Assembly (NCBI GenBank): GCA_002401855.1
Contig: NVUH01000015.1
Location: 1 to 64,000, forward strand
From: Hyphomicrobiales bacterium
GTDB lineage: Bacteria; Pseudomonadota; Alphaproteobacteria; Rhizobiales; OSC116
DNA length: 64,000 nt
Direction: 5' to 3'
Below the pieces are notes generated by a model. It saw only the letters and a list, made by a program, of their open reading frames with translations, made no database searches and was not told the origin of the DNA. Shown here in pieces: positions 28,754 to 50,222 of this stretch (position 1 is its first letter; every line of letters starts with the position of its first letter). The position numbers were made by a program, and so were the translations under genes.

Positions 28754-28910
28754 TTTAAAACACCCCAAATCATTTATCTCTATCAAAAGCCATTAAAAGG
28801 TCTCCGATACAAGATGTTGTCGAACAGTTATTCGCATCTTATTTTTGATAAATTTCATCATAAAATTTCTAACTAACAAAGGTTGCGTGTTCTCGCGCAA
28901 GACCAAAATT

Positions 28911-29678
28911 ATGAAAATACTAATATCTTTATTACTGCTTCTTATATCACAGACAGTACAAGCCGAAACCAAACAGCCAATGCATAATATGAATAGCCAT
29001 GATATGAAAATGGATCACATCGCCAAGTCGGCCACAAACACCAAGCAAATAAATATTGCTGTTTTAATCTATGATGGCGTCGTTCTTCAAGATTTTACGG
29101 GCCCCATTGAGGTTTTTTCAAAAGCCAAGAGATTGACCAAAGGTAAGTACAACCTTTTCACAATCGCTCAAGATGATGAAGCAATCTCAACCGAAAATGG
29201 CTTTCTAAAAGTTACACCAGACTATTCATTTTCAAACATGCCTGAAGCGGATTATTTAATCATTCCAGGTGGAAGTATGCCTGTTGTTAATGAAATGATG
29301 AAAAAGCAAAACATCATCGACTTTATAAAAGCATATGACAAAAAACATACCAAAATCGTGTCTATTTGTACAGGCTCATACCTTTTGGCCAATACTGGTT
29401 TATTACAGGGTAAAAAAGCAACAACCCATTATTTTGTTGCAGATGATTTTTCAAAATTATTTGATGACATTGAAATTATCAAGGACGTTCGATTTGTCGA
29501 CGAAGGGCAATATATCACTTCTTCTGGTGTTACATCAGGGATCGATACTGCACTGTATATAGTGGGTCAAAATAGTGGGGTGAACATACAAAATATGATT
29601 TCACGCGCATTACAATATACTTTTCATGAAAAAGAAACCTGGCCTGTTGCACCAAATGGAATGAAATACAGACGGTAG
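28911..29678 (+). CDS. Exported DJ-1/PfpI-family protein with Met/His-rich leader
   Basis: A 255-residue protein. The ATG at 28911 begins a good signal peptide (MKILISLLLLLISQTVQA); an upstream frame start at 28845 would hide it. After cleavage comes PMHNMNSHDMKMDH, rich in Met and His. The DJ-1/PfpI domain runs from about residue 45, with conserved Glu67 in GPIEVF and nucleophilic Cys153 in VSICTGSYLLA. This branch (GATase1-like, AraC-fused elsewhere) is usually cytoplasmic, so export is unusual. The Met/His patch next to copper-related genes suggests metal binding. The enzyme activity is unknown. Confidence 0.8.
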   Translation: MKILISLLLLLISQTVQAETKQPMHNMNSHDMKMDHIAKSATNTKQINIAVLIYDGVVLQDFTGPIEVFSKAKRLTKGKYNLFTIAQDDEAISTENGFLKVTPDYSFSNMPEADYLIIPGGSMPVVNEMMKKQNIIDFIKAYDKKHTKIVSICTGSYLLANTGLLQGKKATTHYFVADDFSKLFDDIEIIKDVRFVDEGQYITSSGVTSGIDTALYIVGQNSGVNIQNMISRALQYTFHEKETWPVAPNGMKYRR

Positions 29679-30813: not shown

Positions 30814-31665
30814 ATGGATTACAATGACAATCTTTTCTCTGAGAAAACGCGTTTAGTCGCCAACGAAATAGATGTTAAATATGGCGATAATAAAATTATC
30901 GACTGTCTAAATATTGAAATTCCAACGGCCAAAATAACAATATTAATTGGCGCCAACGGCTGCGGCAAATCTACCCTTCTTAAATCTATGGCGCGGGTGC
31001 TCACACCAAGTTCAGGCTCTGTCTGGTTAGATGGTAAAGATATACATAAATCCAATACCAAACAGGTTGCAAAGAAACTTGGTTTACTGCCGCAAGGCCC
31101 TGTCGCGCCAGAAGGCCTAACTGTTAAAGAACTCGTTAGCCAAGGCCGCTTTCCTCATCAAAGTTTACTGCGCCAGTGGAGCTCAAAAGATGAAACAGCT
31201 GTGAACAATGCAATGGCCCTTGCAAAAGTTGATATTTTTGCAGATTTACAAGTTGATGATCTATCTGGTGGCCAGCGCCAACGCTGTTGGGTCGCTATGG
31301 CAATGGCACAAGAAACAGATATCATTTTATTGGATGAGCCAACAACCTTTTTGGATTTGAAGATACAAGTCGAGTTAATGGATCTCTTATCAACTTTAGC
31401 GCATGAAAACGGGCGGACATTGGTGGTGGTTTTACACGAGTTAAATCTTGCCGCAGCATATGCAGATAATTTAATCATGATAAAAGATGGTAAAATTGTT
31501 TTTAAAGGCGAACCAAACAAAATATTTACAAGCGATAATCTGAAATTTGTATTTGATTTAAATGCAGATATTCTTATAGACCCATCAACAAATCGGCATA
31601 TTTGCATTCCAAAATACAAAAATGCAACAAGTTTCTCGCAAAGCACAGAAGGTGCTTCAACATGA
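30814..31665 (+). CDS. FecE-type siderophore ABC transporter ATPase
   Basis: A 283-residue ATPase of iron-chelate importers. Walker A GANGCGKSTLL is at residues 46-56, QGRFPHQS is the family's Q-loop-following region, the signature is LSGGQRQRCWVAMAMA, Walker B is DIILLDEPTTFLDL, and the switch His is in VVVLHELNLAAAYAD. The gene starts at ATG 30814 after a weak ribosome site. Its stop overlaps the first permease start by 4 bp (ATGA). It opens the operon that carries four binding proteins. Confidence 0.95.
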   Translation: MDYNDNLFSEKTRLVANEIDVKYGDNKIIDCLNIEIPTAKITILIGANGCGKSTLLKSMARVLTPSSGSVWLDGKDIHKSNTKQVAKKLGLLPQGPVAPEGLTVKELVSQGRFPHQSLLRQWSSKDETAVNNAMALAKVDIFADLQVDDLSGGQRQRCWVAMAMAQETDIILLDEPTTFLDLKIQVELMDLLSTLAHENGRTLVVVLHELNLAAAYADNLIMIKDGKIVFKGEPNKIFTSDNLKFVFDLNADILIDPSTNRHICIPKYKNATSFSQSTEGAST

Positions 31666-32693
31666 GTAAAGTTACCTTAGTTTCGCCTAAAGAAAAAAAT
31701 AATTTTCGCAGTACTTTAAGCCTTGGCATTTTATTTGCTTTTGGGCTTTGCATAATTATGTTTGTTCTACATATTTCCATCGGAGCAAAACCATTAAGTT
31801 ATTTAACAGTCATTAATTCTATTATTCATTTTGATATCCGTAATTTTGATCACGTCATTATACTAAAAGTAAGGCTACCAAGAGCAATCATTGCATTAAC
31901 TGTAGGCGCAAGTTTAAGTGTTGCAGGTGCCATCATGCAAGGCGTCACTCGTAACCCACTTGCCTCTCCAAGCATTCTGGGTTTGCTAACAGGTGCATCA
32001 TTTGCAATCGTAATTTCCTATGGCATGTTTGGGGTTTTCACCCCCTATTACACACCATGGATTGCAGCTTTAGGCGCGCTTCTCACTGCAATATTGGTAC
32101 TCACTGTCGCTTCATTGGCTCCAGGTGGGGCAAGCCCGCTAAATCTAACACTGTCGGGGGCCGCCATTAGCGCTTTTTTAGGTGCAATCATTACAATTTT
32201 CAATCTATTGGATAGTGATAATTTCGATGATTTGCGAGAATGGCTCACAGGTTCACTTGCTGGCAATAGTCTAGAAGTATTTTATATTATAGTTCCTTGG
32301 ATCATCATCGCTATGGTAGCCGCCATTATTTTGTCTCGAAAAATTACAATTTTAGGCATGGGTGATGACGTTGCCAAAGGGTTGGGCGTAAAAACAACAG
32401 GCCTAAAAATACAATTATTAATCATTGTTGTCATGCTTACCGCAAGCTCAGTAGCCCTCGCAGGTCCCATGGGTTTTATCGGCTTAGTCATACCTCATAT
32501 TGCACGCATCGTCGTTGGTTCTGACTACCGCTGGATAATCCCATATTCAGCCCTATTCGGCGCAGCATACCTTGTTGGGGTCGATATTTTAGCTCGGGTT
32601 ATCATCGCCCCTCAAGAAATTTCAACCGGCATAATCACCGCTTTATTTGGCGGTCCTCTATTTATTTATTTAATTAAAACGAGGGCTAGATGA
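31662..32693 (+). CDS. FecCD-type permease 1
   Basis: A 343-residue permease of the BtuC/FecCD family with about ten transmembrane helices. Family motifs are LPRAIIALTVGASLSVAGAI, MQGVTRNPLASPSILG and GFIGLVIPHIARIVVGSDYR, followed by GGPLFIYLIKTRAR at the end. The start at 31662 overlaps the ATPase stop (ATGA). Its stop in turn overlaps the second permease by 4 bp, so all three are translationally coupled. It forms the heterodimeric channel for an iron chelate. Confidence 0.95.
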   Translation: MSKVTLVSPKEKNNFRSTLSLGILFAFGLCIIMFVLHISIGAKPLSYLTVINSIIHFDIRNFDHVIILKVRLPRAIIALTVGASLSVAGAIMQGVTRNPLASPSILGLLTGASFAIVISYGMFGVFTPYYTPWIAALGALLTAILVLTVASLAPGGASPLNLTLSGAAISAFLGAIITIFNLLDSDNFDDLREWLTGSLAGNSLEVFYIIVPWIIIAMVAAIILSRKITILGMGDDVAKGLGVKTTGLKIQLLIIVVMLTASSVALAGPMGFIGLVIPHIARIVVGSDYRWIIPYSALFGAAYLVGVDILARVIIAPQEISTGIITALFGGPLFIYLIKTRAR

Positions 32694-33748
32694 TGTCAAA
32701 CACGCATTTCACTCTACGATTATTGAATGAAAGCATAGCCCTTAAGCTACCCAAATTCGCCCTAATAATTATCCTAATCATATGTATCATGATTGTTTTT
32801 ATGATCGTTTGGAGTTTAAATATTGGCAGTTTCAACCTGTCTTTCCAAAGTGTTTACGACACTTTGAAAGGCACAGAAACAGATAAAGCTGCAAATAATG
32901 TCGTGTGGCTATTTAGGTTCCCCCGTACATTAGCCGCCATATTGGTTGGAATAATGATGGCACTATCTGGCGCTGCTCTGCAAAACGTCACTCGTAACGG
33001 CTTGGCAGACCCTTCATTAATTGGCATTAGCCAAGGTGCGGCACTCGCAGTTGTCGCAAGCATAATTGTATTTCCTGAAATAGATATCAATTTAAGGCCA
33101 TGGCTGGCTTTGGCAGGCTCTCTTATTGTTGCTGCTACAATCCAATGGTTGAGTTTTGATGATAAAGCCAGCAACTCGCTGAAACTTATTTTATTCGGCA
33201 TAGGCGTATCGGCGTTTTTAAGTTCAATCACCACCGCTATGCTAACTTATGGTGATATTTACAACGCATCATCTGCATTGGCTTGGTTGGCTGGCAGCAT
33301 AAACGCAACCAACTGGTTCGACGTTAAGCTACTCTCAATTGCCGTGCTTATATTGGTGCCACTCTTACTTATTTTAAGTCGGTTGATGGCAACCTTGCGC
33401 TTAGGCGAGATATCTGCCATCTCACTTGGTGTTCCCATAAAATTTGTTAAATATGCACTCATAAGCTTAGCTGTTGCCTTAGCTGCAATCGCCACGTCTG
33501 TTGTCGGGCCTCTTGGCTTTGTGGGCTTAGTTGCGCCTCACCTTGCCAGACTTTTAACACGTAGCAATGTTGCAATTCATTTAATTTTAACCGCATTAAT
33601 AGGCGGCCTGTTGGTCTTAGTTGCAGACTTTGCAGGCAGAGCTTTGTTTGCTCCACTACAAATACCAGCAGGTATTGTCACTGAAATTATTGGCGTGCCT
33701 TTTCTTATATTTTTGCTTTTAAGCCAAAGGCGTAAATTAAATAAATGA
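32690..33748 (+). CDS. FecCD-type permease 2
   Basis: A 352-residue partner permease. It shows FRFPRTLAAILVGIMMALSG, NVTRNGLADPSLIGISQGAA and VGPLGFVGLVAPHLARLLT, followed by IGVPFLIFLLLSQRR. Two consecutive ATG codons occur at 32690 and 32693; the first overlaps the stop of permease 1. After its stop, 36 bp lead to the first binding-protein gene, so transporter and receptors are one transcript. Confidence 0.95.
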   Translation: MMSNTHFTLRLLNESIALKLPKFALIIILIICIMIVFMIVWSLNIGSFNLSFQSVYDTLKGTETDKAANNVVWLFRFPRTLAAILVGIMMALSGAALQNVTRNGLADPSLIGISQGAALAVVASIIVFPEIDINLRPWLALAGSLIVAATIQWLSFDDKASNSLKLILFGIGVSAFLSSITTAMLTYGDIYNASSALAWLAGSINATNWFDVKLLSIAVLILVPLLLILSRLMATLRLGEISAISLGVPIKFVKYALISLAVALAAIATSVVGPLGFVGLVAPHLARLLTRSNVAIHLILTALIGGLLVLVADFAGRALFAPLQIPAGIVTEIIGVPFLIFLLLSQRRKLNK

Positions 33749-33784: not shown

Positions 33785-34756
33785 ATGAAAACTTCATTAA
33801 TAAAAACAGCAATTGCGGTCGCGCTCACAATTATAGTTTCTTCAGCACACGCTGTCGAAACACGTATATATTCAGATGATTTAGACAGAAAAGTCGAAAT
33901 CCCCGTTCAAGCACAACGGATTGTTGCACTACACGATGTTTTGCTAACCGTTCCTTTGATAGAGCTAGGTGTAATGCCAGTGGGTTCTATCGGGCGTTTG
34001 TCAAAAGATGGCAAACCATTCATAAGAAGTGGCATGGTGTTAACTGGCTATGATTTTGAAAATAGCGGTATTGACTTCATTGGTACTTTTGATTTGGATA
34101 TTGAAAAAGTAGCTGCTCTTAAACCAGACTTAATCATTGCAACACCTAGATACGAAAAAACTTTAGCACAATTTGAAGCGCTCGCCCCTACAGTTGTTGT
34201 CAACTATAACACCCGCACGCCATTAGAAATATTTGAAGCGGTTGCCGACATCACAAACACTCAAGATAAATTGGCTGTATTAGAAAGACGCTACCAAAGC
34301 CAATTAGATGGCATTAGACGCATTATTGATACAAAAAGCATAGTCGTCAATGCGATGATGCCTAAAAAGGGTAACATAAACATTCGCTATTCAGACTTCA
34401 CACTAGGTAAAGTATTACGTGATGCGGGCTTTAGGTTTCCAAAAGCTGTAGATGATCTAAAACCAGGTGGACGTGCAGACTTTAGCGTTGAAAGACTGGC
34501 TGAATTAGATGCTGATTATGTATTTGCAACCTATAGAACAGATAAAAAACACACTCCACAAATGATAGTTGAAGAGTTTGAAGCCGTTCTTCCTAATTTC
34601 TGCGATCACCTAACAGCCTGCAAAAACAACAATCTAATCGTCATTCCTCGTGAATTGAGCTTAAGCGTTTCATACACAGCATTGGGCATCACAGCCTACA
34701 CCGTGTTGACTCATATAAGTGGCAACCCATTTGCAGCTAAGCTTGAGAAGAAATAA
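33785..34756 (+). CDS. Iron-chelate binding protein paralog 1
   Basis: A 323-residue periplasmic binding protein of the FepB/FhuD class III type. The signal peptide ends near SSAHAVE (residue 23). The mature part starts YSDDLDRKVEIPVQAQRIVA, with LPxG-free ligand-cleft motifs IELGVMPVGSIGR, LKPDLIIATPRYEK and ATYRTDKKHTPQ. A cysteine pair in NFCDHLTACKNN may form a disulfide. It is the first of four tandem paralogs. It differs most in the C-terminal region, where PRELSLSVSYTALG replaces the PREEASSNSF of others. Confidence 0.9.
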   Translation: MKTSLIKTAIAVALTIIVSSAHAVETRIYSDDLDRKVEIPVQAQRIVALHDVLLTVPLIELGVMPVGSIGRLSKDGKPFIRSGMVLTGYDFENSGIDFIGTFDLDIEKVAALKPDLIIATPRYEKTLAQFEALAPTVVVNYNTRTPLEIFEAVADITNTQDKLAVLERRYQSQLDGIRRIIDTKSIVVNAMMPKKGNINIRYSDFTLGKVLRDAGFRFPKAVDDLKPGGRADFSVERLAELDADYVFATYRTDKKHTPQMIVEEFEAVLPNFCDHLTACKNNNLIVIPRELSLSVSYTALGITAYTVLTHISGNPFAAKLEKK

Positions 34757-34763
34757 AACTTAA

Positions 34764-35669
34764 ATGTCCAATCTCCCCACACCATTTAGAAGTTTTACAG
34801 ATGATTTAGGTCGCGTTGTGCAAATTCCAACCACACCAAGACGCATCGCGTCACTGCACGATACTGTACTTACATTATCTCTCATCGAGTTAGGCGTATT
34901 TCCCGTTGGCAGTCACGGCAGGATATCAAAGGAAGGGGTACCGTTCATCAGAGCAAGTAAGGTATTAAACGGTTATGATTTTGACAATTGCGACATAAAA
35001 TTTTTAGGCCGTAGCCCAATCGACATTGATAAACTTATCTCTGTAAAGCCTGACCTTATTATTTCAACACTTTGGCAAAAACTACCCATTGAGCAGCTAG
35101 AAGCCATTGCTCCCACATTAATTTTAGATTTTGAAAAACACACGAGAGGAAAATTAGCAGAGATTATAGCTGATGCAACAAATACACAAAGCAGCCTAAC
35201 CATTTTGAAACGTAGGTTTGAAGCACAAATAGAACGTATTAAAGAAATTATAGATACGCAACAAATTAGTGTGAACATCATTCAACCACATAACGGAAAA
35301 ATATTAGTTTTTAATTCATATTTTTCCATGGGTGAGGTTTTGCGTGATGCTGGTTTTAAATTTCCTGATGCAGTGAATGATATTCCATTGGGTGATTGCA
35401 AACTATTTGAGCCAGATGAACTTGATCAAATAGAAGCTGATTTTGTATTTGCAACTTATAGAACTGATAAAAAACACACACCGCAATATTTGATGGATGA
35501 GTTTATTGCGATCAAAAGTGATTTTGTCGAAAGTTTTGCACCCTGTCGACAAGGCCGGCTATTATTCATCCCTAGAGAAGAAGCCAGCGGCAACTCATTT
35601 GCTGCTTTGGGAATTTGCGCCGCAACAATCTTAAACCACGTAGCGGGGCACCCTTACCCGATTATATGA
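34764..35669 (+). CDS. Iron-chelate binding protein paralog 2, no signal peptide
   Basis: A 301-residue paralog of the flanking binding proteins. It begins MSNLPTPFRSFTDDLGRVVQ, so the mature domain starts almost at residue 8 and there is no signal peptide, lipobox or upstream frame that could supply one; only 7 bp separate it from paralog 1. The conserved first cysteine of the CxxxxxxC pair is lost (DFVESFAPCRQG). Other motifs are kept: IELGVFPVGSHGR, VKPDLIISTLWQK, ATYRTDKKHTPQ and PREEASGNSFAALG. It probably stays in the cytoplasm. It could be a sensor, a chelate store or a delivery protein for the reductase, or a decaying copy. Confidence 0.88.
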   Translation: MSNLPTPFRSFTDDLGRVVQIPTTPRRIASLHDTVLTLSLIELGVFPVGSHGRISKEGVPFIRASKVLNGYDFDNCDIKFLGRSPIDIDKLISVKPDLIISTLWQKLPIEQLEAIAPTLILDFEKHTRGKLAEIIADATNTQSSLTILKRRFEAQIERIKEIIDTQQISVNIIQPHNGKILVFNSYFSMGEVLRDAGFKFPDAVNDIPLGDCKLFEPDELDQIEADFVFATYRTDKKHTPQYLMDEFIAIKSDFVESFAPCRQGRLLFIPREEASGNSFAALGICAATILNHVAGHPYPII

Positions 35670-35727: not shown

Positions 35728-36690
35728 ATGAACATCTCAATACTAAAAGCTACCTTTGCCGCATGCGCAATCGTAGCAACTATGTTTGCACCCGCACAGG
35801 CTGCAGATACAATATCATTTACCGATGACCTAGGCAGAAAGGTAGAAATACCAACAAAGCCAACTGCCATTGTTTCAATGCACGATTCTGTGTTGACCAT
35901 TCCTTTAATAGAACTGGGTGTAATACCTGCTGGCAGCCATGGCCGCGAAACAAAACAAGGCGTGCCCTTCATTAGAAGTGGCAAAGGCTTAACTGGTTAT
36001 GACTTTGACAATAGCAGCATTAAATTTGTTGGTAATTACCCTGCTGATGTTGAAAAAGTCGCAGCTGTAAAACCCGATTTAATCATCACAACACCTTGGC
36101 AAAAAGCGCCTATTGACCAATTACAGGCCATAGCACCTACCATTGTGATTGATTATAATAAACATTCTGATCAAGAAATTTTTGAATTGCTTGCAAAAAT
36201 TACTGGCACAACAGAACGATTTAATGTTTTGCTTGGTAGATATGAGCAACAGATAAAACGCATCAAACGCATTATTGACACTGAAAACATTACGGTGAAT
36301 GTAATACAACCCAATAAAGGTCAAATCTTAGTTTGGAACACATATGGTAATATTGGCAAAGTATTACGCGACGCGGGCTTTACGTTTCCACAAATCACAA
36401 ATGACATCCCAATGGATGATATTGGCCGATTCAGTGCCGAAAAACTACAGGACTTAGATGCTGATTATGTTTTTGCAACCTATAGAACCGATCAACTACA
36501 ATCACCAAAAGACACCGTAGAAGGCTTTGAGCAGGTTGTACCTGGCTTCTGCGAGTATCTAACTGCTTGTAAAGAAGGCCGTATGCTCGTCATCCCACGT
36601 GAAGAAGCTTCTAGCAACTCATTCTTAGCATTGAGTATTTCTGCATACACTGTGCTCACTCACATTAGTGGTCACCCATACAATAAATAA
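35728..36690 (+). CDS. Iron-chelate binding protein paralog 3
   Basis: A 320-residue periplasmic binding protein. The signal peptide is ILKATFAACAIVATMFAPAQ ending at AQAAD. It keeps ELGVIPAGSHGRETKQGVPF, GKGLTGYDFDNSSIKFVG, VKPDLIITTPWQKAPIDQ and ATYRTDQLQSPKD, plus the cysteine pair GFCEYLTACKEG. A good GAGAAGAG ribosome site precedes it. It is closest in pattern to paralogs 2 and 4. It likely docks on the FecCD permease pair encoded upstream; its ligand specificity relative to the others cannot be told from sequence. Confidence 0.9.
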   Translation: MNISILKATFAACAIVATMFAPAQAADTISFTDDLGRKVEIPTKPTAIVSMHDSVLTIPLIELGVIPAGSHGRETKQGVPFIRSGKGLTGYDFDNSSIKFVGNYPADVEKVAAVKPDLIITTPWQKAPIDQLQAIAPTIVIDYNKHSDQEIFELLAKITGTTERFNVLLGRYEQQIKRIKRIIDTENITVNVIQPNKGQILVWNTYGNIGKVLRDAGFTFPQITNDIPMDDIGRFSAEKLQDLDADYVFATYRTDQLQSPKDTVEGFEQVVPGFCEYLTACKEGRMLVIPREEASSNSFLALSISAYTVLTHISGHPYNK

Positions 36691-36746: not shown

Positions 36747-37712
36747 ATGAATAAAATAATATTAAAAACAATTGCTGCAATTGGTTTTGCAGCAATAACA
36801 TCATTTAGCTTTGCGCAAGCAAGCGACATGCGTCAAATTAAGGACGACGTAGGCAGAGATCTTCAAGTTCCAGTTTCACCGACTGCCATAGTTGCGTTAC
36901 ATGATTCAATGTTAACCCTTCCACTAATAGAGTTAGGTGTTTTGCCTGTGGGCTCTGATGGCCGAACAGACAAAGCAACAGGAAGAAACTTCATACGCGC
37001 TGGGAAAAGCTTAACAGGTATTGATTTTGACAATAGCAGCATTAAATATGTATCGTCAGATTTAGAAAAAATCGCTGCGGTAAAGCCAGATCTCATTATC
37101 ATTTCTACAGGCGATCAAGACATTCTGGACAAACTTCAAGCAATTGCTCCTACATTTGTAATTGACTATGACAAACGCACTCGTATTCAAATATTTGAAA
37201 TATTAGCAGAATTATCTAACACTGTAGCAAAGCTAGACACACTAAAAACTCGTTACAATCAGCAAATCCAAGACATTAAAAATGTTATTGACACCCAAAA
37301 CATCACTGTCAATGTTATGCAGCCATCAAAAGGTAAAATACTCGTTTGGAACTCATATTTTAGCCTAGGTAAAGTGTTGCGTGATGCAGGCTTTAAGTTT
37401 CCTAAAATTGTAAATGAAATCAAACCTGGTGAACGCGCTCAATTTAGCGCCGAAAAACTGCAAGAACTTGACGCCGATTACATTTTTGTAACTTATCGTA
37501 CCGATCGCAACCACACACCACAGAATACTGTTGCCGATTTTGAAGATGTTATTCCAAATTTCTGTAACTACCTCAAGGCTTGTCGTGAAAACCAAATGCT
37601 AGTTATGCCGCGTGAAGCCGCATCTAGCAACTCGTTTACCGCGCTTGGTCTATCAGCATTTACGGTGCTCACACATATCAGTGGTAACCCATACAAAAAG
37701 CTTGGTAAATAA
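36747..37712 (+). CDS. Iron-chelate binding protein paralog 4
   Basis: A 321-residue periplasmic binding protein with a signal peptide ending SFAQASD (about residue 25). It contains ELGVLPVGSDGRTDKATGR, GKSLTGIDFDNSSIKYVS, AVKPDLIIISTGDQD and VTYRTDRNHTPQN, and the cysteine pair NFCNYLKACREN. Compared with paralog 3 it has a two-residue insertion after GRTDKATG and lacks a few residues before the DLEKIAAVKPD segment, changing loops near the cleft. It is the last binding protein and runs straight into the reductase gene. Confidence 0.9.
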   Translation: MNKIILKTIAAIGFAAITSFSFAQASDMRQIKDDVGRDLQVPVSPTAIVALHDSMLTLPLIELGVLPVGSDGRTDKATGRNFIRAGKSLTGIDFDNSSIKYVSSDLEKIAAVKPDLIIISTGDQDILDKLQAIAPTFVIDYDKRTRIQIFEILAELSNTVAKLDTLKTRYNQQIQDIKNVIDTQNITVNVMQPSKGKILVWNSYFSLGKVLRDAGFKFPKIVNEIKPGERAQFSAEKLQELDADYIFVTYRTDRNHTPQNTVADFEDVIPNFCNYLKACRENQMLVMPREAASSNSFTALGLSAFTVLTHISGNPYKKLGK

Positions 37713-38582
37713 TTGAATAAATTAACAAACATAATTGCTGGCGTTCGAAAATATATTTTCGAACGCCATTCAATAAAATCTAGTGCTGGGCAACCTGTAC
37801 GGATGAGGTTTTTTGAAGTTGAGGTCGTTAACAAACAAATACTATCGCCTTCATTTATACGAATTACATTTAAAGGCGATGCCGTTAAAAATATGGTGGT
37901 ACATGCACCAGATCAATGGTTGAAATTATTCATTCCTAATGAAGATGGCAGTGTAGAAAAAGTCATTGGTCATAACCAATATCTTAAATTTCCAGATAAT
38001 ATCAGACCACCAATGCGAACCTATACAATAAGAGAATTACGTAGCGAAATCTTGGAATTTGACATTGATTTTGTTGTGCATGGCGACGAAGGCCCTGCAT
38101 CTAGGTGGGCAATTAGTGCAAAAATTCATGATAAAATGCAAATTCGTGCACACAGCAAATCAGCAGACAAAACACCTTCGGGGTGTAAATGGTTGCCACC
38201 TTCCGATGCAGAAAACCTATATATTTTTGCAGATGAAACAGCAATGCCTGCGACACTTGCTATTATAGAGTCTTTAGCTAAGCTCAAACCACCTCCCAAA
38301 CTAACTGTTTTTATCGAAGTGCCCACCGAAGAGGATATATTGACGACAGAAAAATGGGGTCAACTGAAACTAACATGGTTAGTGAGAAACTCTAACGATA
38401 AGTATGGTGAGAAATTATATGAATCATCAAAATCTATTGAACTAAGAAATTCAAAAGAAAACACCTATTTTTGGATCGCGGCCGAAAAAAATGCTGTTCG
38501 AAAAATAAAAATGCATTTCTCACAAATAAGTAATATTAACAAGAAATCTATAATGCATATAGCCTACTGGATAAATTCTTAA
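37713..38582 (+). CDS. Siderophore-interacting protein (ferric-siderophore reductase)
   Basis: A 289-residue FAD protein of the SIP/ViuB family, which reduces ferric siderophores in the cytoplasm to free iron. FAD-binding motif RTYTIREL is near residue 94, followed by DFVVHGDEGPASRWA, then IFADETAMPATLAIIESL and a C-terminal AYWINS (family YWRxG). The frame starts with TTG immediately after the paralog 4 stop. An ATG at 37803 (MRFFEVEVV) is an alternative that would leave a 30-bp palindrome outside the gene. It should complete the operon: import by ABC, then reduction. Confidence 0.88.
   Translation: MNKLTNIIAGVRKYIFERHSIKSSAGQPVRMRFFEVEVVNKQILSPSFIRITFKGDAVKNMVVHAPDQWLKLFIPNEDGSVEKVIGHNQYLKFPDNIRPPMRTYTIRELRSEILEFDIDFVVHGDEGPASRWAISAKIHDKMQIRAHSKSADKTPSGCKWLPPSDAENLYIFADETAMPATLAIIESLAKLKPPPKLTVFIEVPTEEDILTTEKWGQLKLTWLVRNSNDKYGEKLYESSKSIELRNSKENTYFWIAAEKNAVRKIKMHFSQISNINKKSIMHIAYWINS
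37739..37768. repeat. 30-bp perfect palindrome at the 5' end of the SIP gene
   Basis: The arms TGGCGTTCGAAAA and TTTTCGAACGCCA flank a central TATA at 37739-37768. The transcript would form a 13-bp stem. Its place between the last binding protein and the core of the SIP reading frame suggests an intercistronic hairpin or operator; it argues mildly for the later SIP start. Confidence 0.65.
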
Positions 38583-39137: not shown

Positions 39138-39430
39138 CTTGATAAAATCTCAAGAGAAATCGGTTTGAATAAAAAAAGCTAAAGGACTTTTTCAAAGCCA
39201 TATATGCCGTTCCAGTTTATAAATTTCTACAAAATGAACGGCTAGTTTATGCACATAAGTTGCTGAAAGATGACAATCTCAGCATAATGGAAATTTCATT
39301 GGTTGTGGAATATACTAACCCTGGTCGCTTTGCACAACTCTTTAAGCAAAAATATGAGTATTTACCATCAAAATTTATAAACTTTTGGTTTAGTTATTAC
39401 ACGAGAATCCTGATGACTAATTTGGACTAA
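39138..39430 (+). pseudogene. AraC-family regulator remnant with frameshift
   Basis: Only the DNA-binding part of an AraC/XylS (PchR-like) regulator is visible. The frame at 39138 reads LDKISREIGLNKK and stops; after a run of seven A the other frame continues KLKDFFKAIYAVPVYKFLQ, then AHKLLKDDNLSIMEISLVV and NPGRFAQLFKQKYEYLPSKF. These are the two helix-turn-helix motifs of the family. A one-base indel in the A-run explains the break. The 3' end overlaps the convergent ABC ATPase gene. It may be the former regulator of the siderophore operon. Confidence 0.8.
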
Positions 39431-39937
39431 TGTGCATTTATTTTCTACCAAATATTTTTCGATTAAGTTTTGAATAATATTCCAATTATATTGATCCAGG
39501 CTTGCTCCAATTTCATCTAACAATAACAGATCAGGTTCTACTAACAATGCGCGTAAGATATTCACTCGTTGCTTTTCACCACCAGAGAGACTGAATATGG
39601 GGCGCAACATCTGTTCAGCCAATCCAACAGTTTCCAAATAATTATCTACCATTTGACCAAATTCAATTTTATTAATGTGTGGCAATAGCATCAAATTTTC
39701 TTGTGCTGATAAATGTGGAATTAGGCGCGCTTCTTGAAATGCCAAAGCAATCTTTTTTGCATTTACTTCCACGTCGCCCGAAATGGGCTGATGCAACCCC
39801 GCGATAACACGCAAAAGCGAGGTTTTACCACAACCGCTTGCCCCCACAAATTGCCAATTTTCTTGCAGTCCGACATTTAAATTAATGGGTTTACTTTCAA
39901 CAAAAATTTGTAAATCTGTCAGTTTAATTTCAATCAA
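39368..39937 (-). CDS. SsuB/TauB-type ABC transporter ATPase
   Basis: A short (189-residue) ATPase. Walker A is GASGCGKTSLL near residues 32-42, the Q-loop is in ALAFQEARLIPHL, the signature is LSGGEKQRVNILRALL, Walker B is LLLLDEIGASLD and the H-loop is QISHQD. The Walker B glutamate is kept, but the usual DEP becomes DEI. It is about 50 residues shorter than typical family members because the C-terminal part is trimmed. It overlaps the permease gene by 4 bp and the AraC remnant at its 3' end. Confidence 0.88.
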   Translation of the reverse strand: MIEIKLTDLQIFVESKPINLNVGLQENWQFVGASGCGKTSLLRVIAGLHQPISGDVEVNAKKIALAFQEARLIPHLSAQENLMLLPHINKIEFGQMVDNYLETVGLAEQMLRPIFSLSGGEKQRVNILRALLVEPDLLLLDEIGASLDQYNWNIIQNLIEKYLVENKCTLVQISHQDSRVITKPKVYKF

Positions 39938-40764
39938 AATGACTGCCTCTTATGTTTCGAGCTTACATCATACCTAGCCAACAATATGCTCGCAAATTTA
40001 TCAAAAAGCACAACAATTAGCACCATCACAATCAATAATGCAAATAATTTATCGGTTTGCAAATAGGTGCGGGCTGTATCAACTCGCTCACCTAAACCAC
40101 TTGTTGCGGCAAATATTTCGGCCAAAATTGTTAACCGAGCGCTATTGGCAATCGCTAATCGTATGGCAGGAGATAACGCCCCCCAAAGGGACGGTAAGAT
40201 AAAATGTTTGAGCCGATTGACTAAAGACACGTTATAAAATTGAAGCATTTCATTCAAGTCATAATCAATCGTGTCAAAGCCATCGCATAAAGCCATGTAA
40301 AATATGGGTGCAATAAACACTGCCACCATAACAATAACCATTGTTGAGCCCAACCCCAACCAAGTTATAAATAATACCACACCCACAGCTGCTGGCATGC
40401 TCGTCGTTAAAACTCTTAAGGGCGAGAACATGTGCCGCACTATTGGAATGTTTCCAGCCAGCACCCCAAAAGAAACCCCAATAAACGCAGCGCTAAAAAA
40501 ACCAAGAATGATATGAAAAAGGCTAGGCATCAGGCTATCTAACCAAAAATTTAAGTCAAAAACATAATCTAACAACGCCCAAAACACTAAATTGGGCGAA
40601 GGAATAAGAGTGGGGTGATTGTATAATGATAATATCCACCAAATGGAGAGTAAAACAACGCAGCCAGATAGCTTTGCTAAAAGGTTTTTATAAATAAACT
40701 GGTTGTCGTCCCGCGCCAATTCCGTGCTCCCCCAAAGTGTCTTATTCACCAAAAAATTCTTCAT
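39934..40764 (-). CDS. SsuC/TauC-type ABC transporter permease
   Basis: A 276-residue inner-membrane permease of the nitrate/sulfonate/taurine class with about six helices (LSGCVVLLSIWWILSLY near residue 32, and MVIVMVAVFIAPIFYMALCD). The EAA loop region reads RLKHFILPSLWGALSPAIRL and is followed by ANSARLTILAEIFAATSGLG. Its start lies inside the 3' end of the binding-protein gene (23-bp overlap), so the genes are tightly coupled. Confidence 0.88.
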   Translation of the reverse strand: MKNFLVNKTLWGSTELARDDNQFIYKNLLAKLSGCVVLLSIWWILSLYNHPTLIPSPNLVFWALLDYVFDLNFWLDSLMPSLFHIILGFFSAAFIGVSFGVLAGNIPIVRHMFSPLRVLTTSMPAAVGVVLFITWLGLGSTMVIVMVAVFIAPIFYMALCDGFDTIDYDLNEMLQFYNVSLVNRLKHFILPSLWGALSPAIRLAIANSARLTILAEIFAATSGLGERVDTARTYLQTDKLFALLIVMVLIVVLFDKFASILLARYDVSSKHKRQSF

Positions 40765-41701
40765 TTGGCAATTTCCCGCCTATAGACGCTGCCTCTATTG
40801 CCTCAATAACCTTAAAAAAGCCAACTAAATCTTGCTTAGATTGGGACATTGTCGCCAATTTTCCTGATATGCCCGAAAAACTTTTGGTCAAAAGCATCTT
40901 ATTGAGATTTGGAAACGCTTCAACCAATAATGAAGCGGCTAGCTCGGGGTTGTTTTCCACACGGTTAAAAGCACTTATGTAATTTTGCTCAAAATCCGCT
41001 AAAATTTCTGCACTTAGGCCAGACATCGTCAATTGAGATGTGAATGCAACCAAGCCAACGGGGGGGCATTGCTTCAGGTCAGTAGAAACTTTCCATGCCG
41101 CGCATATGTTTAACTTCGCGCTCAACCCCTCGCCTTTCATTGCAGCAATGGTTGCCAAAGGCTCGGCTAAAAATGCGTCATCTACTTTTCCAGCCAAAAG
41201 CAATTGCATAGCTTCAATTGGGCTCTTCACATAAACCGTGTTTTCTGCAGTCAAACCAAGCTGTTTGGTTATTAGATCGGGCAAATCACCTTTAAACGGT
41301 ACAGCCACTTTTGTTCCTTCTAATGCGGCCAGGTTTTCAATTTCTCCGCCACGCCCCAATAAAACCAAATTACCATCTAAATGATGGGCAAAAATTGTTT
41401 TTAAGTGAATGTCTTTATTGGCAAAAAGTGCTGCAGTTATGCTCGGGACAATGGCAATATCAATTTCTTGATTGATAATCAGCGCTCTTAATTGCACGGG
41501 GGATTTCCATGGTGTGAATTTTAGGTCGATTCCCTTGTCTTTAAGTGGTTGCAATTTAACCAATTCCAACAATATGGTAGAATCCCAAATTGGCGGACCA
41601 GATAAGTTAAGTGTTTGGGCTGAGACTGATGCGGTTAAGCTCAGCGCAGTGATTAATACCAATGATTTGCAAGCATGTTTTGCATTTTTTAAAAAACTCA
41701 T
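40742..41701 (-). CDS. NMT1/TauA-type periplasmic binding protein
   Basis: A 319-residue binding protein. The signal peptide ends at ASVSAQ (about residue 29). The mature part begins TLNLSGPPIWDSTILLELV, followed by TPWKSPVQLRALIINQEIDI and AIVPSITAALFANKDI, the pattern of NMT1/SsuA-like proteins. LEGTKVAVPFKGDLPDLI and VDDAFLAEPLATIAAMKGEG are also family segments. Two cysteines in ICAAWKVSTDLKQCP may form a disulfide. It lies 20 bp after the methyltransferase gene. Ligands of the family range from thiamine precursors to sulfonates; the one here is unknown. Confidence 0.85.
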   Translation of the reverse strand: MSFLKNAKHACKSLVLITALSLTASVSAQTLNLSGPPIWDSTILLELVKLQPLKDKGIDLKFTPWKSPVQLRALIINQEIDIAIVPSITAALFANKDIHLKTIFAHHLDGNLVLLGRGGEIENLAALEGTKVAVPFKGDLPDLITKQLGLTAENTVYVKSPIEAMQLLLAGKVDDAFLAEPLATIAAMKGEGLSAKLNICAAWKVSTDLKQCPPVGLVAFTSQLTMSGLSAEILADFEQNYISAFNRVENNPELAASLLVEAFPNLNKMLLTKSFSGISGKLATMSQSKQDLVGFFKVIEAIEAASIGGKLPNEEFFGE

Positions 41702-41721
41702 AATATTCTCCTAATTTCTAT

Positions 41722-42756
41722 TTATTTGTTGAGTGGGTTGGCCATTAAAATATCTAATTCAAACGGCCCAAATGCGGTTGGAATTGAACGACTAGAATGA
41801 TGAATAAAGCCAGCTTTTAGAGCCGCTTGTTGAATATATCCCAGTTCAAAGCTGTAATTTCTATCTTTTAATGTCGGAATAAGTCGGCCGATAATATGTT
41901 GTTCGGGCGCCGTTTTCTGGTCAGTTAAGGCCTCGTGAAAACTAACAAAACAGCCGTTTTCATTTAACATATTTTTAAGTTTTTTTAAAAAACCTACCAA
42001 ATCACCTTTTACAAAATATAATGACATTGAAGCCCAGATAAGATCAAAACTTTGATCGGGCAAACTCACATTATAATCCCCTGCCAACATGCTTATATTA
42101 TCGATATCAGCAACATATGGCTGAATTTGCGCTGCAGCCTGAGACACATCAAATAAGCTAACATGCTTATCTGGGAACTCAGTGATAATGGCCTGTGCTA
42201 AAATGTCTGATCCCGCACCTAAATCCAATATAGTTTTCGCTTCACTCCAATTGGGCGCGGTTTTCAAAGTCGAGAATTGCACTTCAACGGCACAAGCTTT
42301 ATGAAATGCCCGCAAAGATTTGGTCGACTTACCCCAATGTTCGGCATCAAATAAAGGCGGCTCAGCTTGCGGCGCCACACCACGCGCAAATTCGGATAAC
42401 TTATCAAGTCCCGCATGACGTAATTTTGCCAATGATTTTAACGTCGGCAATAGGCAAAATTCGCTTTGTTGCGTTAGATAGGCAATGAAATTTAGCGCTG
42501 AATGATAGCATTCATTTTTGAGTTCCAACAAACCCATCGAAACCAATGCATTCAACAACCCAGCCAATTTTTCGGGCTTAAAATTAGTTTTCTCAGCAAT
42601 GGTTTTACAACTCATCCCAGCTTTGCAATGTTCAAAAATCTGTTCGTCAATAGCCCACTCCAGCAGCGCATAGCGTATCGGGGCATGTAACCAATCAAAT
42701 AATTGGGCTACCGCATCGACATTCTCAGTTTTGGATTTTGAAAAAGTGTGGTTCAT
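41722..42756 (-). CDS. O-methyltransferase-like SAM-dependent enzyme
   Basis: A 344-residue protein. The N-terminal winged-helix dimerisation domain (VAQLFDWLHAPIRYALLEWA, then CKTIAEKTNFKPEKLAGLLN) is typical of small-molecule O-methyltransferases. The SAM-binding core has motif I TILDLGAGSDILAQAI, acidic HVSLFDVS, and FDLIWASMSLYFVKGD. It is the first gene of an operon with the NMT1-type ABC transporter (20 bp before the binding protein). A link between methylation of a small molecule and its uptake or export is inferred; no substrate is known. Confidence 0.82.
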   Translation of the reverse strand: MNHTFSKSKTENVDAVAQLFDWLHAPIRYALLEWAIDEQIFEHCKAGMSCKTIAEKTNFKPEKLAGLLNALVSMGLLELKNECYHSALNFIAYLTQQSEFCLLPTLKSLAKLRHAGLDKLSEFARGVAPQAEPPLFDAEHWGKSTKSLRAFHKACAVEVQFSTLKTAPNWSEAKTILDLGAGSDILAQAIITEFPDKHVSLFDVSQAAAQIQPYVADIDNISMLAGDYNVSLPDQSFDLIWASMSLYFVKGDLVGFLKKLKNMLNENGCFVSFHEALTDQKTAPEQHIIGRLIPTLKDRNYSFELGYIQQAALKAGFIHHSSRSIPTAFGPFELDILMANPLNK

Positions 42757-42858
42757 TTGTTTTCTCTCTCGTTTTGCAAGAGATTAAACAAATAGCTTTA
42801 TGATTGCTGTCAAATGAAGAAAGAAAAACAGCAATTGCCGAATAGAGATATTCTAATG

Positions 42859-43788
42859 TTACAGTAGAAATCTATATTGTTTGGGACTCAAATTATACAT
42901 TTTGGCAAAAGCATTGGAAAAATGGCTAGAGCTGTTAAAACCATGTTCAAAAGCGATGCTGGTAATGGAATGATCGGTGGCCCTTAAAGCCTCTGCCGCA
43001 CGTTGCATCCGAACATGGCGGTAATATTGAAAAATTGTCATCCCCGTTTGATGGCTGAACATCTTATTCAGCTTAACATGGTTGATACCAACCTCCTGCG
43101 CCAACTTATTCAAACTAGGCGGATTCATCAAATCATCAAGTAGTCTTACTTGAACCTGTTTAAAAATTTTATCCTCCCGATTAACATTGCCATTTTCTGA
43201 ACCAATCAATTGATCCAAAACTTGGCCAAATATTTCGAGCACCCGCCCCTCATTCTTCAACCTCTGGCCCATATTTTGACTGGGTTCTAACATGGCCGTT
43301 TGCAAAGCAAGGCTTGGAGAAAACTCTTTATCAATTTTATTAAAATAATTGCCATTGGCGCGTAATTTTAAACCGGCAGAAAGTTCTTGCGCCAATTCAG
43401 CATAAAATTTCACCTTAAGATCCAGTTGCAACGCCATGACAAACATTGATGAGCTTTTACCCGCAGCCTGATGTCTTACTAAATTTTGTCCTTGCGGCGT
43501 AAAAAGCCAAACATCGCCTTGTTCAACATATATCTGGTCATGCTTGTTTTCAATACTAAAGCCAGTGCGGCCTTTAAGACCGACAACCAATAAAACAGTA
43601 TTCTCAGCATGCTTAATTTTGTAGGTTTTATCAAAAGAACTGACACAATGGCTTTTTGTTGCGGTCAATTGATGGCTTTGGCGATGTGATTGAAAATGGC
43701 TGTAATCATATATTTCAGGCAAATTAAACGCGTTGACTTCACCATTTTCTGTTGGTTGAAATTCTACAGGTCTAATTATATTTGGCAT
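42859..43788 (-). CDS. AraC-family transcriptional regulator
   Basis: A 309-residue regulator. The C-terminal pair of helix-turn-helix motifs reads PPSLNKLAQEVGINHVKLNK and ITSIAFEHGFNSSSHFSNAF, ending LSPKQYRFLL. The N-terminal domain is cupin-like (YVEQGDVWLFTPQG). The pattern and neighbourhood fit PchR-type regulators that respond to iron chelates. It lies upstream of the methyltransferase/ABC operon on the same strand, 102 bp away, and might control both that operon and the iron genes. Confidence 0.88.
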   Translation of the reverse strand: MPNIIRPVEFQPTENGEVNAFNLPEIYDYSHFQSHRQSHQLTATKSHCVSSFDKTYKIKHAENTVLLVVGLKGRTGFSIENKHDQIYVEQGDVWLFTPQGQNLVRHQAAGKSSSMFVMALQLDLKVKFYAELAQELSAGLKLRANGNYFNKIDKEFSPSLALQTAMLEPSQNMGQRLKNEGRVLEIFGQVLDQLIGSENGNVNREDKIFKQVQVRLLDDLMNPPSLNKLAQEVGINHVKLNKMFSHQTGMTIFQYYRHVRMQRAAEALRATDHSITSIAFEHGFNSSSHFSNAFAKMYNLSPKQYRFLL

Positions 43789-44730: not shown

Positions 44731-45540
44731 TCAACCGCTATAACCAGTCATATAACTGGGTTCAGCGTGTGTGTGTTTCGGTAAAATCATTAAAAATGGA
44801 TGGTTAAGTTCAGGATAATCATGCCGTTTAAAACCAATCTGAAAAACCTCTTCTAACAGGCTTTCACTTAGCACTTCATCAGGCGTGCCGATGGCACGTA
44901 ATTTGGCTTGGTGCATAATGGCAATTTTATCCGCATAGGCAGCCGCAAGGTTTAAATCGTGCAACACCACAATAACGCTTGCACCGCCATTAGCCAGAGC
45001 CTTAGCCAAACGCAAAATACCGTGTTGGTGGCGCGGGTCAACATGTGAGATTGGTTCGTCTAAAAAAACCAATGGCGCCCGCTGGGCAAGAACTCGGGCT
45101 AAATTCACTCTGGCTTTCTCACCCCCAGAAAGTGTTAAATAATTTCTTTGGCTAAAACCCAGCATTTCAGTATCCGCCAAAGCAGATTTAACAATTTCTA
45201 GATCCGCAAGGCTTTCACCTTTTTTATCTAAATGTGGATTGCGACCAAATAGCACCACTTGTGATGCGTTAAACGGGAAATTCAGGTCTGAAGATTGCGG
45301 CATTACCGAGCGGGTTTGAGCTAACTGTTTGATAGAATAATCTGTTAACGCCTTACCAAATAATTTGACCCGCCCCTCGCTTGCTTCTAAATCACCACTT
45401 AATAATTTAATCAAGCAAGTCTTACCAGCGCCATTGGGGCCAATGATAGCCAACAATTCACCATGAGCAACCTTTAGGCTAACATTGTCGATTAATTTTT
45501 TATTATTTAAAATCAAACTTATATTTTGAGCTTCAAGCAT
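44731..45540 (-). CDS. hmuV: HmuV-like heme ABC transporter ATPase
   Basis: A 269-residue ATPase. Walker A is IGPNGAGKTCLIKLLSG, the characteristic HmuV region is RSVMPQSSDLNFPFNASQVV with LFGRNPH, the signature is LSGGEKARVNLARVL, Walker B is LVFLDEPISHVDPRHQH and the H-loop is VVLHDLNLAAAYAD. The overall pattern matches hemin importers of alphaproteobacteria. It overlaps the permease stop by one base. It energises transfer of heme from HmuT through HmuU. Confidence 0.9.
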   Translation of the reverse strand: MLEAQNISLILNNKKLIDNVSLKVAHGELLAIIGPNGAGKTCLIKLLSGDLEASEGRVKLFGKALTDYSIKQLAQTRSVMPQSSDLNFPFNASQVVLFGRNPHLDKKGESLADLEIVKSALADTEMLGFSQRNYLTLSGGEKARVNLARVLAQRAPLVFLDEPISHVDPRHQHGILRLAKALANGGASVIVVLHDLNLAAAYADKIAIMHQAKLRAIGTPDEVLSESLLEEVFQIGFKRHDYPELNHPFLMILPKHTHAEPSYMTGYSG

Positions 45541-46589
45541 TAAGCAACTCCACCATGATCACGCCGTGTGCGCTCAATTAAATATAAAAAGAATGGCGCC
45601 CCAACCAGTGCTGTAACCAACCCCAGAGGCAATTGCGCAGGCGACACAACCGTGCGGGCAAATAAATCTGCCAACACCAATAAAATCGCTCCGCCCATTG
45701 CCGATGCAGGTAACAACAATCTATGATCAGGCCCCAAAATAAGCCGGAACAAATGCGGTGCGACCAAACCAACAAATCCAATAACACCCGCCACAGAAAC
45801 AGCCGCCCCCGTTGCGATCGAAGCCAAAGCCAAACATTGCAGCCGCGCTCTTTCCGTATCAACCCCCAGATGCCGCGCTTCAGCATCACCAAGCGCCAAC
45901 AAATTAAGCGTTCGCGCATATCGCAACATAAAAATAAAACTCAAAATTATAAACGGCGCGATCACCCAGATAAACTTCCAAATAGAAGCGCTTAACGAAC
46001 CCATCATCCAAAATACAATAGACCGAAGCTCCGCATCATCCGAAACAAATGATAAAAAGCTCACCACCGCCCCCATCAGCGCATTCACCGCGATACCAAC
46101 CAATAATAATGTGGTAACTTCAGCTTGGCCGCCTCGCCGCGCAAAGCGATATACAAGCATTGCAGTGCCCAAACCACCAACAAATGCCATAGCAGGAAGC
46201 GTCCAGATACCCAGTGCAGTAAAGCCCAATACAATGGCAATGGTTGCCCCCGCCGCTGCCCCACCAGAAACACCAATAAGCCCAGGACTGGCTAACGGGT
46301 TACGAAAAACTCCTTGAATGACTGTGCCAGAAACACCTAGTGCGCCACCAATTAAAACGCCCATCACCACACGTGGTAAACGAATGGCTATCAAAACAGC
46401 ATGTTCTCTCGAAGTGAATTCAATGGGTAAAGCTATACCCAGCTTACTCAACAATATAGCTATGGTTTTATCAAGTGGAATAAAAAATGCACCAATTCCC
46501 ACACTGATTAAGCATATCAAAACCAACATAACGGCAATAACGCTTAATGCAATATTGCCACTAATGTTCTTAGATTTATTTGGGTTCAT
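45540..46589 (-). CDS. hmuU: HmuU-like heme permease (FecCD family)
   Basis: A FecCD permease of 349 residues if started at the ATG at 46587-46589. Motifs are IRLPRVVMGVLIGGALGVSG, VIQGVFRNPLASPGLIGVSG and VIGFVGLVAPHLFRLILGPD, and it ends IERTRRDHGG. Longer starts exist: an ATG overlapping the hmuT stop would add about 20 residues. The chosen start lies inside a strong hairpin (46585-46619), so its access may be regulated. Co-operon with hmuT and hmuV. Confidence 0.88.
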   Translation of the reverse strand: MNPNKSKNISGNIALSVIAVMLVLICLISVGIGAFFIPLDKTIAILLSKLGIALPIEFTSREHAVLIAIRLPRVVMGVLIGGALGVSGTVIQGVFRNPLASPGLIGVSGGAAAGATIAIVLGFTALGIWTLPAMAFVGGLGTAMLVYRFARRGGQAEVTTLLLVGIAVNALMGAVVSFLSFVSDDAELRSIVFWMMGSLSASIWKFIWVIAPFIILSFIFMLRYARTLNLLALGDAEARHLGVDTERARLQCLALASIATGAAVSVAGVIGFVGLVAPHLFRLILGPDHRLLLPASAMGGAILLVLADLFARTVVSPAQLPLGLVTALVGAPFFLYLIERTRRDHGGVA

Positions 46590-46619
46590 TCTATCGCCCA
46601 AAAACGGCGATAGAATGAA
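46585..46619 (-). promoter_or_regulatory. 14-bp hairpin covering the hmuU start codon
   Basis: Arms 46585-46598 and 46606-46619 are exactly complementary around a seven-base loop. On the minus strand the 3' arm includes the ATG of hmuU. It lies 23 nt past the hmuT stop, so it can act as an intercistronic hairpin that lowers hmuU translation or protects hmuT mRNA. Confidence 0.6.
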
Positions 46620-46641
46620 GCTTTTTGAGCGTATGATAAAA

Positions 46642-47670
46642 TCACTTATCATCTGCATAAAGTTTTTCAGCAAATGCTTTGGCGGCTGAAGGCAATCTCC
46701 AACTTGCACGATGAGTTTCTAAAGATGCCCATGTTAGAAATTTCTTATTTTCACCTGCAGGAGTTTCACTAACACCAGGAATTGCAAGTATATATTGAAC
46801 AGGGTCTTCATTACGATCCCAGAGTTTTTGCGGAATGACAATATAATCAGGCTTCATTGGAATGATCGCTTCAGGATCGATTTCTTTTTCACCGCTAATT
46901 TTTGCTTCTGCCCCCACATTAATGGCACCAGCCAACCGAATGACCAAATCTTCGGTTTTCATTAAACCAGTGGTACGCGTACTGCCCTCGCTATAGGGCA
47001 ACATACTCATCACGCGGTAATGTTTACCACTATCGGCAGCCAGTTTTGCAGCTGCGGCTGCATCTAAACGCATGCCTTCAATTAGCTCATGGCCTTTTTC
47101 AGGCACTTCAAGCGCTGCGGCAATTAATTCAACAAATTCTTCTAATACCCGCATGGTATATTTACCCTGCTCTTTAGCACGAGCCAATTCTGGTACAATA
47201 AGCACATCTACATCAGCGGCTTTAAGTTGTTCAAAAATACCCAAATTGCCTTCTTTTTTGGCTGCCCAATCAGGCATAATAACCAAATCTGGATTCAAGC
47301 TCAACACACCCTCAACATTGAGTGAGCTATAAGAACCAACATCAGGTAATTTTTCAATTACTCCTTCAGGCCAGATTGCATTTTTTGTACGACCAACAAC
47401 AAGATCACCCAAACCAAGGCCAAAAATAGCGTCAGAAACAGAAGGCACCAATGCAACAATACGCTTGGCGCTATTAATTGTAGTTTCATTGCCAAAACTA
47501 TCCGTAACATTAAGCGGGTAGCCGCCTGCTGCTTGAACACTTGAAATGATAAAAACACTTGTAGCCAAACCAAGTGCCGCACTGCGCATCAAATTACAAC
47601 TAAGCTTTTTCACATTAAAAAGAGCGTTCAATAATATACTTTTCTTTAATTCCATCTGTTTTTGTTCCAT
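46642..47670 (-). CDS. hmuT: HmuT-like heme-binding periplasmic protein
   Basis: A 342-residue class III binding protein. The early N terminus is long; the likely signal peptide core is RSAALGLATSVFIISSVQAA (residues about 29-48). The mature part contains AKRIVALVPSVSDAIFGLG, VGSYSSLNVEGVLSLNPDLV and MPYS-type segments (MLPYSEGSTRTTGLM), consistent with hemin-binding HmuT. It delivers heme to HmuUV. An ATG is reachable at 47670 or later (residue 6 or 28); the exact start is open. The upstream region is AT-rich. Confidence 0.85.
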   Translation of the reverse strand: MEQKQMELKKSILLNALFNVKKLSCNLMRSAALGLATSVFIISSVQAAGGYPLNVTDSFGNETTINSAKRIVALVPSVSDAIFGLGLGDLVVGRTKNAIWPEGVIEKLPDVGSYSSLNVEGVLSLNPDLVIMPDWAAKKEGNLGIFEQLKAADVDVLIVPELARAKEQGKYTMRVLEEFVELIAAALEVPEKGHELIEGMRLDAAAAAKLAADSGKHYRVMSMLPYSEGSTRTTGLMKTEDLVIRLAGAINVGAEAKISGEKEIDPEAIIPMKPDYIVIPQKLWDRNEDPVQYILAIPGVSETPAGENKKFLTWASLETHRASWRLPSAAKAFAEKLYADDK

Positions 47671-47983
47671 TTTATTTCGTTCCTAGTAAATTCAAATCAA
47701 TAAAGTGGTGGTGTTTTCAAAAAACTTGCCAAACGAAACATCATGTTGGATGACATTATAATATTTGTTAAATTGGTTGAATTTGCCCCACACAATTAAA
47801 TGCTAAAACTGCTCAAAGCGGAGTTCATGCAATTAATAATCACTATTAATATTTATTGATAAAAATTATGTATGTCAAGTAAGTATATGAATTTTATAGT
47901 TATTTTAATTATAATAATTAAAATAACTGATTCAAGCAGGCAGTAGATGTCAATTAATTTGCCATGTTTATCAAGTCGAAGTG
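47671..47983. promoter_or_regulatory. hmuT upstream region with 31-nt AT palindrome
   Basis: No gene is seen. The stretch contains the long AT palindrome listed separately and further AT-rich repeats (TTAATAATCACTATTAATA near 47829), likely promoter and iron-responsive operator DNA for hmuTUV. No specific regulator box can be assigned. Confidence 0.5.
47898..47928. promoter_or_regulatory. 15-bp-armed AT-rich palindrome upstream of hmuT
   Basis: AGTTATTTTAATTAT at 47898-47912 is exactly complementary to 47914-47928 around one central base. It lies 228 bp upstream of the hmuT start and 56 bp past the stop of the ABC/DUF302 pseudogene. It could be an operator or the weak terminator of that pseudogene. 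Confidence 0.55.
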
Positions 47984-50159: not shown

Positions 50160-50171
50160 TTAACACTAATC

Positions 50172-50202: not shown

Positions 50203-50222
50203 AAAAAATAGAGATTAAATTT

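Follow-up and report, generated by a model that had tools for sequence, protein, structure and literature searches.

The second of four tandem FitE-type siderophore-binding proteins encoded by an importer operon of a Hyphomicrobiales bacterium, termed P2, is most probably a retargeted protein that resides in the cytoplasm and has lost permease docking, a reading to which a probability of roughly 0.9 is given from sequence comparison. The window, the whole stretch of 64,000 nucleotides that was analysed, is part of contig C49 of a 3.08 Mb assembly of 50 contigs (genome G000). On its + strand it carries an operon-like run comprising an ABC ATPase, two FecCD-type permeases, the tandem binding proteins P1 to P4, which are FitE-type substrate-binding proteins (SBPs), and a SIP reductase. 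The genes, together with the stop codon that precedes P2, are as follows; L020 and L027 are related loci described below.

30814..31665, + strand: ABC ATPase (FecE type), gene 1 of the operon; Pfam ABC_tran 3.1e-30; gene order matches L020 and L027.
31602..32693, + strand: FecCD-type permease 1, given as an ORF within which the true start probably lies; position and sequence match the L020 permease.
32690..33748, + strand: FecCD-type permease 2 (ORF), with a match in L020.
33785..34756, + strand: P1, exported FitE-type SBP; PF01497 1e-19; N-terminal hydropathy 2.7; signal peptide, Cys pair and docking pair E/E.
34761..34763, + strand: in-frame TAA just 5' of the P2 ATG, read from the sequence.
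34764..35669, + strand: P2, leaderless and probably cytoplasmic FitE-type binding protein; PF01497 3.7e-12; 301 aa.
35728..36690, + strand: P3, exported FitE-type SBP; PF01497 2.8e-18; docking pair E/E.
36747..37712, + strand: P4, exported FitE-type SBP; PF01497 1.1e-20; docking pair E/E.
37713..38582, + strand: SIP-type flavin ferric-chelate reductase; PF08021 1.5e-30 and PF04954 2.2e-24; likely alternative start ATG at 37803.

Other genes of the window lie on both sides of this run. About 1 kb upstream, at 28845-29678, is a gene of the DJ-1/PfpI family whose product apparently has a signal peptide. On the - strand, 39368-43788 is taken up by an ABC transporter cluster. It includes genes for a periplasmic protein (40742-41701), an O-methyltransferase-like protein (41722-42756) and an AraC regulator (42859-43788), and the last of these seems to belong with this cluster, not with the FitE-type operon. 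Two more FecCD-type ABC clusters occupy 44731-52044 and have their own Peripla_BP_2 proteins (46642-47670 and 49023-50159). The genome as a whole presents 14 PF01497 matches.

P1, P3 and P4 display ordinary hydrophobic leaders, while P2 begins at the mature domain, 7 bp after the P1 stop. An upstream leader on P2 is impossible because the in-frame TAA abuts the ATG and the frame spans exactly 301 aa from one stop to the next, and the absence of a signal peptide and of any alternative start, as given in the preliminary description, thus stands. Kyte-Doolittle profiles (11 residues) gave the same answer in a signal-peptide check: the N-terminal hydropathy of P2 peaks at 1.18, inside the mature domain, against 2.1-2.7 in P1, P3 and P4. 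A comparison of Shine-Dalgarno regions between leaderless and leadered copies revealed no clear difference.

A scan of genome contigs with the single sequence gave no relatives; they were identified by a profile scan, and the neighbouring species returned a counterpart of P2 that is likewise leaderless, lacks the Cys pair and fills the same operon slot. In the congener G005, a metagenome-assembled genome, locus L020 comprises the ATPase, two permeases, P1, a leaderless ORF, a leadered P3 and SIP. The leaderless ORF (9644-10564, 306 aa) starts 11 bp after P1 and shares 55% identity with P2, the other full-length leaderless ORF. Both have a 10-residue N-terminal tail before the motif FTDD, equal in length and different in sequence, starting MNSFFTSSYNFTDDMG in the L020 copy and MSNLPTPFRSFTDDLG in P2. 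A second operon of the G005 bin (L021), located on contig C120, which may come from another strain as the bin is listed at 5% contamination, displays a leaderless start, MNSCPTSFYKFTDDMG, in the corresponding place. There the frame at 5208-5753 (- strand) is a 181-aa in-frame chimera in which the N-terminus of a leaderless P2 is joined, across an internal deletion, to the C-terminus of P3, a sign of recombination among tandem paralogs; the SIP gene beside it is intact.

The operon is carried by two of the six species of the genus, which by itself makes up the family, and no further leaderless FitE-type copy was found among the loci read from 385 genomes of the class and 397 of the order. In Rs2, a gammaproteobacterial Osedax symbiont, a single-SBP operon ending in SIP (L027, 2826-7862) has no leaderless copy, and its SBP is the nearest leadered relative of the leaderless clade; the likeness of the operons suggests transfer between bacteria of different classes. 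Among the FitE-type loci examined for this trait, SIP adjacency was seen only in the window, where SIP lies directly downstream of the array, in both G005 operons, which share this arrangement, and in L027; a leaderless copy is present, or once was, in three of these four.

By its profile match (3.7e-12), P2 is a FitE-like class III SBP of PF01497, and its structural model (pLDDT 89, pTM 0.82) displays a fold like that of FitE, the class III periplasmic siderophore-binding protein of E. coli (PDB codes 3be5 and 3be6), with 3be5 as the nearest structure (TM 0.93, E 3.8e-40, with 47% identity over the structural alignment). FitE-type proteins are exported and carry the Cys pair, which is seen in the 3be5 sequence, as well as both docking glutamates, whereas in P2 none of these three features is intact. 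A Pfam scan of P2 identified PF01497 alone, with no AraC-type DNA-binding domain on the chain. Arg-53, Arg-63, Arg-194 and Arg-271, invariant in a ten-sequence alignment, are kept in P2, and alignment column 228, most often Arg in the family, is Cys-212 in both leaderless copies. P2 is predicted to retain chelate binding, and its ligand preference may have changed, given this replacement of the usual Arg of column 228.

In class III SBPs two glutamates, one in each lobe, pair with permease arginines for docking, and according to the activity tests cited for FecB, FhuD2 and FeuA these salt bridges are indispensable (PMC3741162). To map the docking columns, BtuF and FecB of E. coli K-12, docking-competent class III SBPs of the same fold class as P2, were aligned with the family. 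BtuF E72/E202 and FecB E93/E222, the docking residues of the two proteins, land one-to-one on two family columns, of which the N-lobe column is Glu in 145 of 145 and the C-lobe column in 147 of 147 ungapped leadered frames. P1, P3 and P4 are E/E, while the pair is D/D in P2 and D/A in the leaderless copy of G005. The residues of P2 at these positions and at the cysteine positions considered below are:

35028..35030, + strand: D89, at the N-lobe docking Glu position (BtuF E72, FecB E93); D in both leaderless copies.
35397..35399, + strand: C212, new Cys, usually Arg elsewhere; only in the two leaderless copies.
35415..35417, + strand: D218, at the C-lobe docking Glu position (BtuF E202, FecB E222); D in P2, A in the G005 copy.
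35526..35528, + strand: V255, replacing the first Cys of the pair; C in 118 of 118 nearest leadered members.
35544..35546, + strand: C261, the second Cys of the pair, which P2 retains; the G005 copy has Ala.
35616..35618, + strand: C285, new Cys, usually Met or Leu elsewhere; only in the two leaderless copies.

Of 52 near-invariant columns, P2 retains 43 and its G005 counterpart 42, compared with 51-52 in the leadered paralogs; the losses are concentrated around docking (89, 216, 218 and 224, P2 numbering) and in the Cys patch (252, 255, 260 and 261). The same pattern extends to the wider Peripla_BP_2 proteins of the order and class genomes: all 47 leadered proteins are E/E and all eight leaderless ones have lost one or both glutamates, counts that ignore kinship and rest on leaders called by hydropathy and start positions, with no trained predictor. 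The set leaves aside L146, L147, L142 and L174 (fragment, frame not found, overlong or wrong frame). The eight belong to several subfamilies and display the pairs D/D (L135, 1378-2319, - strand), R/T (L136, 1447-2265, + strand), P/D (L154), P/T (L155), E/P (L163), A/E (L168), L/E (L175) and E/S (L178); L136 adjoins an ArgK/MeaB-like GTPase gene. By these counts the docking pair marks periplasmic service, and P2 lacks this mark like its other leaderless cousins. Loss of the docking glutamates, which the preliminary description did not contain, is the strongest evidence for the proposed retargeting of P2 and may be a recurrent signature of retargeting across leaderless Peripla_BP_2 proteins.

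The loss of the first Cys exactly in P2 among the four paralogs, where FCDHLTAC, FCEYLTAC and FCNYLKAC correspond to FVESFAPC, was confirmed as previously described. The pair, presumed to form a disulfide, is complete in 118 of 118 nearest leadered relatives. In the 152 aligned frames of the protein family of P2 the first Cys is found in 144 and the second in 145. Eight frames do not have the full pair: both leaderless copies, three proteins of a subgroup that is leadered but divergent, a single distant protein, and two frames with gaps or truncations. The leaderless copy of G005 has lost both cysteines (FATHFAPA), and the new Cys-212 and Cys-285 are common to both leaderless copies and occur in no other of the 152 frames. 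In G010, a member of another family of the same order, a tandem array of leadered FitE-type SBPs (L022, 5210-14400, - strand) includes one without the Cys pair (WREILHAG); therefore, Cys loss alone is no marker of cytoplasmic copies.

P2 and its G005 counterpart are sisters in a 62-protein tree (support 99/98) and in a 19-protein tree (98/96, or 95/91 with eight trait-linked columns masked), and P2 falls inside the FitE-type array family, in a 100/100 clade with P1, P3, P4 and the G005 copies. The terminal branches of the two leaderless copies are long (0.44 and 0.38). A single loss of the leader before the split of the two species is most likely because of this sister support and the identical operon slot. 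Two separate losses in the same slot would fit the fall of clade support to 15/0 once masking is extended to 16 columns, among them almost every shared derived residue, and keep some probability as an alternative.

Pairwise counting of dN/dS is uninformative between species, where synonymous sites are saturated, and a branch codon model of ten sequences and 290 codons was therefore used. It assigned a dN/dS of 0.087 to the three P2 branches and 0.063 elsewhere (p = 0.31 for the difference), and neutrality was rejected when the P2 value was fixed at 1 (2dlnL = 163.6); with saturated synonymous sites the exact ratios are soft and the rejection of neutrality is firm. Purifying selection thus acts on P2 as it does on the exported paralogs, and the relaxed selection named in the preliminary description as evidence against a cytoplasmic role is not seen, the P2 branches lying at ~0.09 and not near 1. 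Over the 52 N-terminal codons common to the C14 and C120 copies, dN was 0.052 and dS 0.31, a ratio of ~0.17. In simulations without constraint, almost every copy had acquired stops once 0.2 changes per site were reached.

These data leave little room for two readings in which P2 is not a functional cytoplasmic protein. That it is a relic, a duplicate decaying after leader loss, is very improbable and already largely refuted: the third copy, on C120, is indeed a deleted chimera, but the two full-length ORFs remain 55% identical with a dN/dS of ~0.09 that rejects neutrality, and simulated neutral ORFs gain stops long before the P2/G005 divergence is reached. Scarcely credible is that P2 is still exported by an unusual route, or that an assembly or frameshift error hides its leader. 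Tandem paralogs are prone to misassembly and G005 is metagenome-assembled, but the same design recurs with different sequence in two genomes, P1 ends at a normal C-terminus, and the offset frame from P1 stop to P2 start differs between the species, so that no common frameshift fusion can account for both; moreover, the lost docking glutamates make sense if P2 no longer meets the permease. A hidden upstream signal peptide, the sequencing error about which the preliminary description had cautioned, is equally at odds with the leaderless design repeated in G005. Its proposal of a functional retargeted receptor gains support from the syntenic leaderless counterpart, purifying selection and the loss of both docking glutamates.

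P2 would have arisen in the tandem FitE-type receptor array through loss of the signal peptide, its product staying in the cytoplasm. Once off its old job, it would have shed residues of use only in the periplasm, the Cys pair with its presumed disulfide and the two permease-docking glutamates, while purifying selection would have maintained the fold and the conserved arginine-rich core. In the cytoplasm P2 would most likely act as an acceptor or buffer in solution, binding ferric chelate after its import, or else the released chelator, and may present the chelate to the SIP flavin reductase, encoded by the last gene of the operon; within the operon the chelate just imported would be the obvious ligand and SIP the obvious customer. 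SIP proteins such as YqjH are known to reduce ferric chelates in the cytoplasm (PMC11357680). That P2 acts as a cytoplasmic ferric-chelate carrier has about even odds, hand-off to SIP being the least certain step. The full relay, in which a receptor of the importer has given rise to a dedicated cytoplasmic carrier of ferric siderophore that takes the imported chelate and delivers it to SIP, is possible, if doubtful. The hand-off to SIP, put forward in the preliminary description, is no more than a possibility: SIP adjoins the array in four loci, three of which have or once had a leaderless copy, but Rs2 has SIP and no such copy, which speaks against strict coupling, and SIP has no strict need for P2 because the damaged C120 copy stands beside an intact SIP. 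P2 might nonetheless pass chelate to SIP.

Two other cytoplasmic roles have to be weighed against the carrier. A siderophore-SBP fold is at work in the cytoplasm in Btr/YbbB of Bacillus. In that protein an AraC regulator is fused to a FeuA-like SBP domain, whereas P2 is a lone SBP. YbbB/Btr is listed in the AraC family with a putative FeuA-like substrate-binding domain (PMC3896406), and it provides a precedent for P2 as a sensor that would bind imported chelate and control transcription through a partner regulator. That docking and Cys residues have gone is compatible with any role in the cytoplasm, including this one, but P2 has no DNA-binding domain, and the AraC-linked sensor of the preliminary description is not supported: the AraC gene of the window lies ~7 kb off in another cluster, the G005 loci show none close to the operon, and no regulator is conserved next to it. 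A sensor is distinctly unlikely. Also unlikely, though less so, is a cytoplasmic binder that has been neofunctionalised for a different ligand, for instance free chelator, citrate or some other metal complex, and works outside the ferric-chelate route. The change of Arg to Cys-212, the new Cys-285 in both leaderless copies and the long terminal branches would suit such a role; against it, the near-invariant core is mostly kept and in both species the gene stays between P1 and P3 in a transport operon.

Leaderless Peripla_BP_2 proteins are already known in other subfamilies, for example NF038402, the "helical backbone metal receptor" to which L136 belongs. Proteins of this type and of the L135 type are, like P2, leaderless PF01497 proteins that have lost one or both docking glutamates, but they represent other subfamilies, while P2 sits in a FitE-type importer operon and gave no match to the NF038402 profile at E 0.01. 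What is new is a leaderless copy born in a siderophore importer array and kept in two species, in which the leader has been lost in concert with docking and Cys residues. A literature search, outside which most subscription journals lay, found no account of leaderless siderophore SBPs.

Ferric siderophores are usually assumed to diffuse freely from the inner-membrane importer to the reductase in the cytoplasm. A cytoplasmic receptor copy maintained by selection, and encoded in one operon with both of these, would open the idea of a soluble carrier to direct test, and the docking-Glu rule offers a simple way to spot retargeted proteins among annotated ABC substrate-binding proteins.
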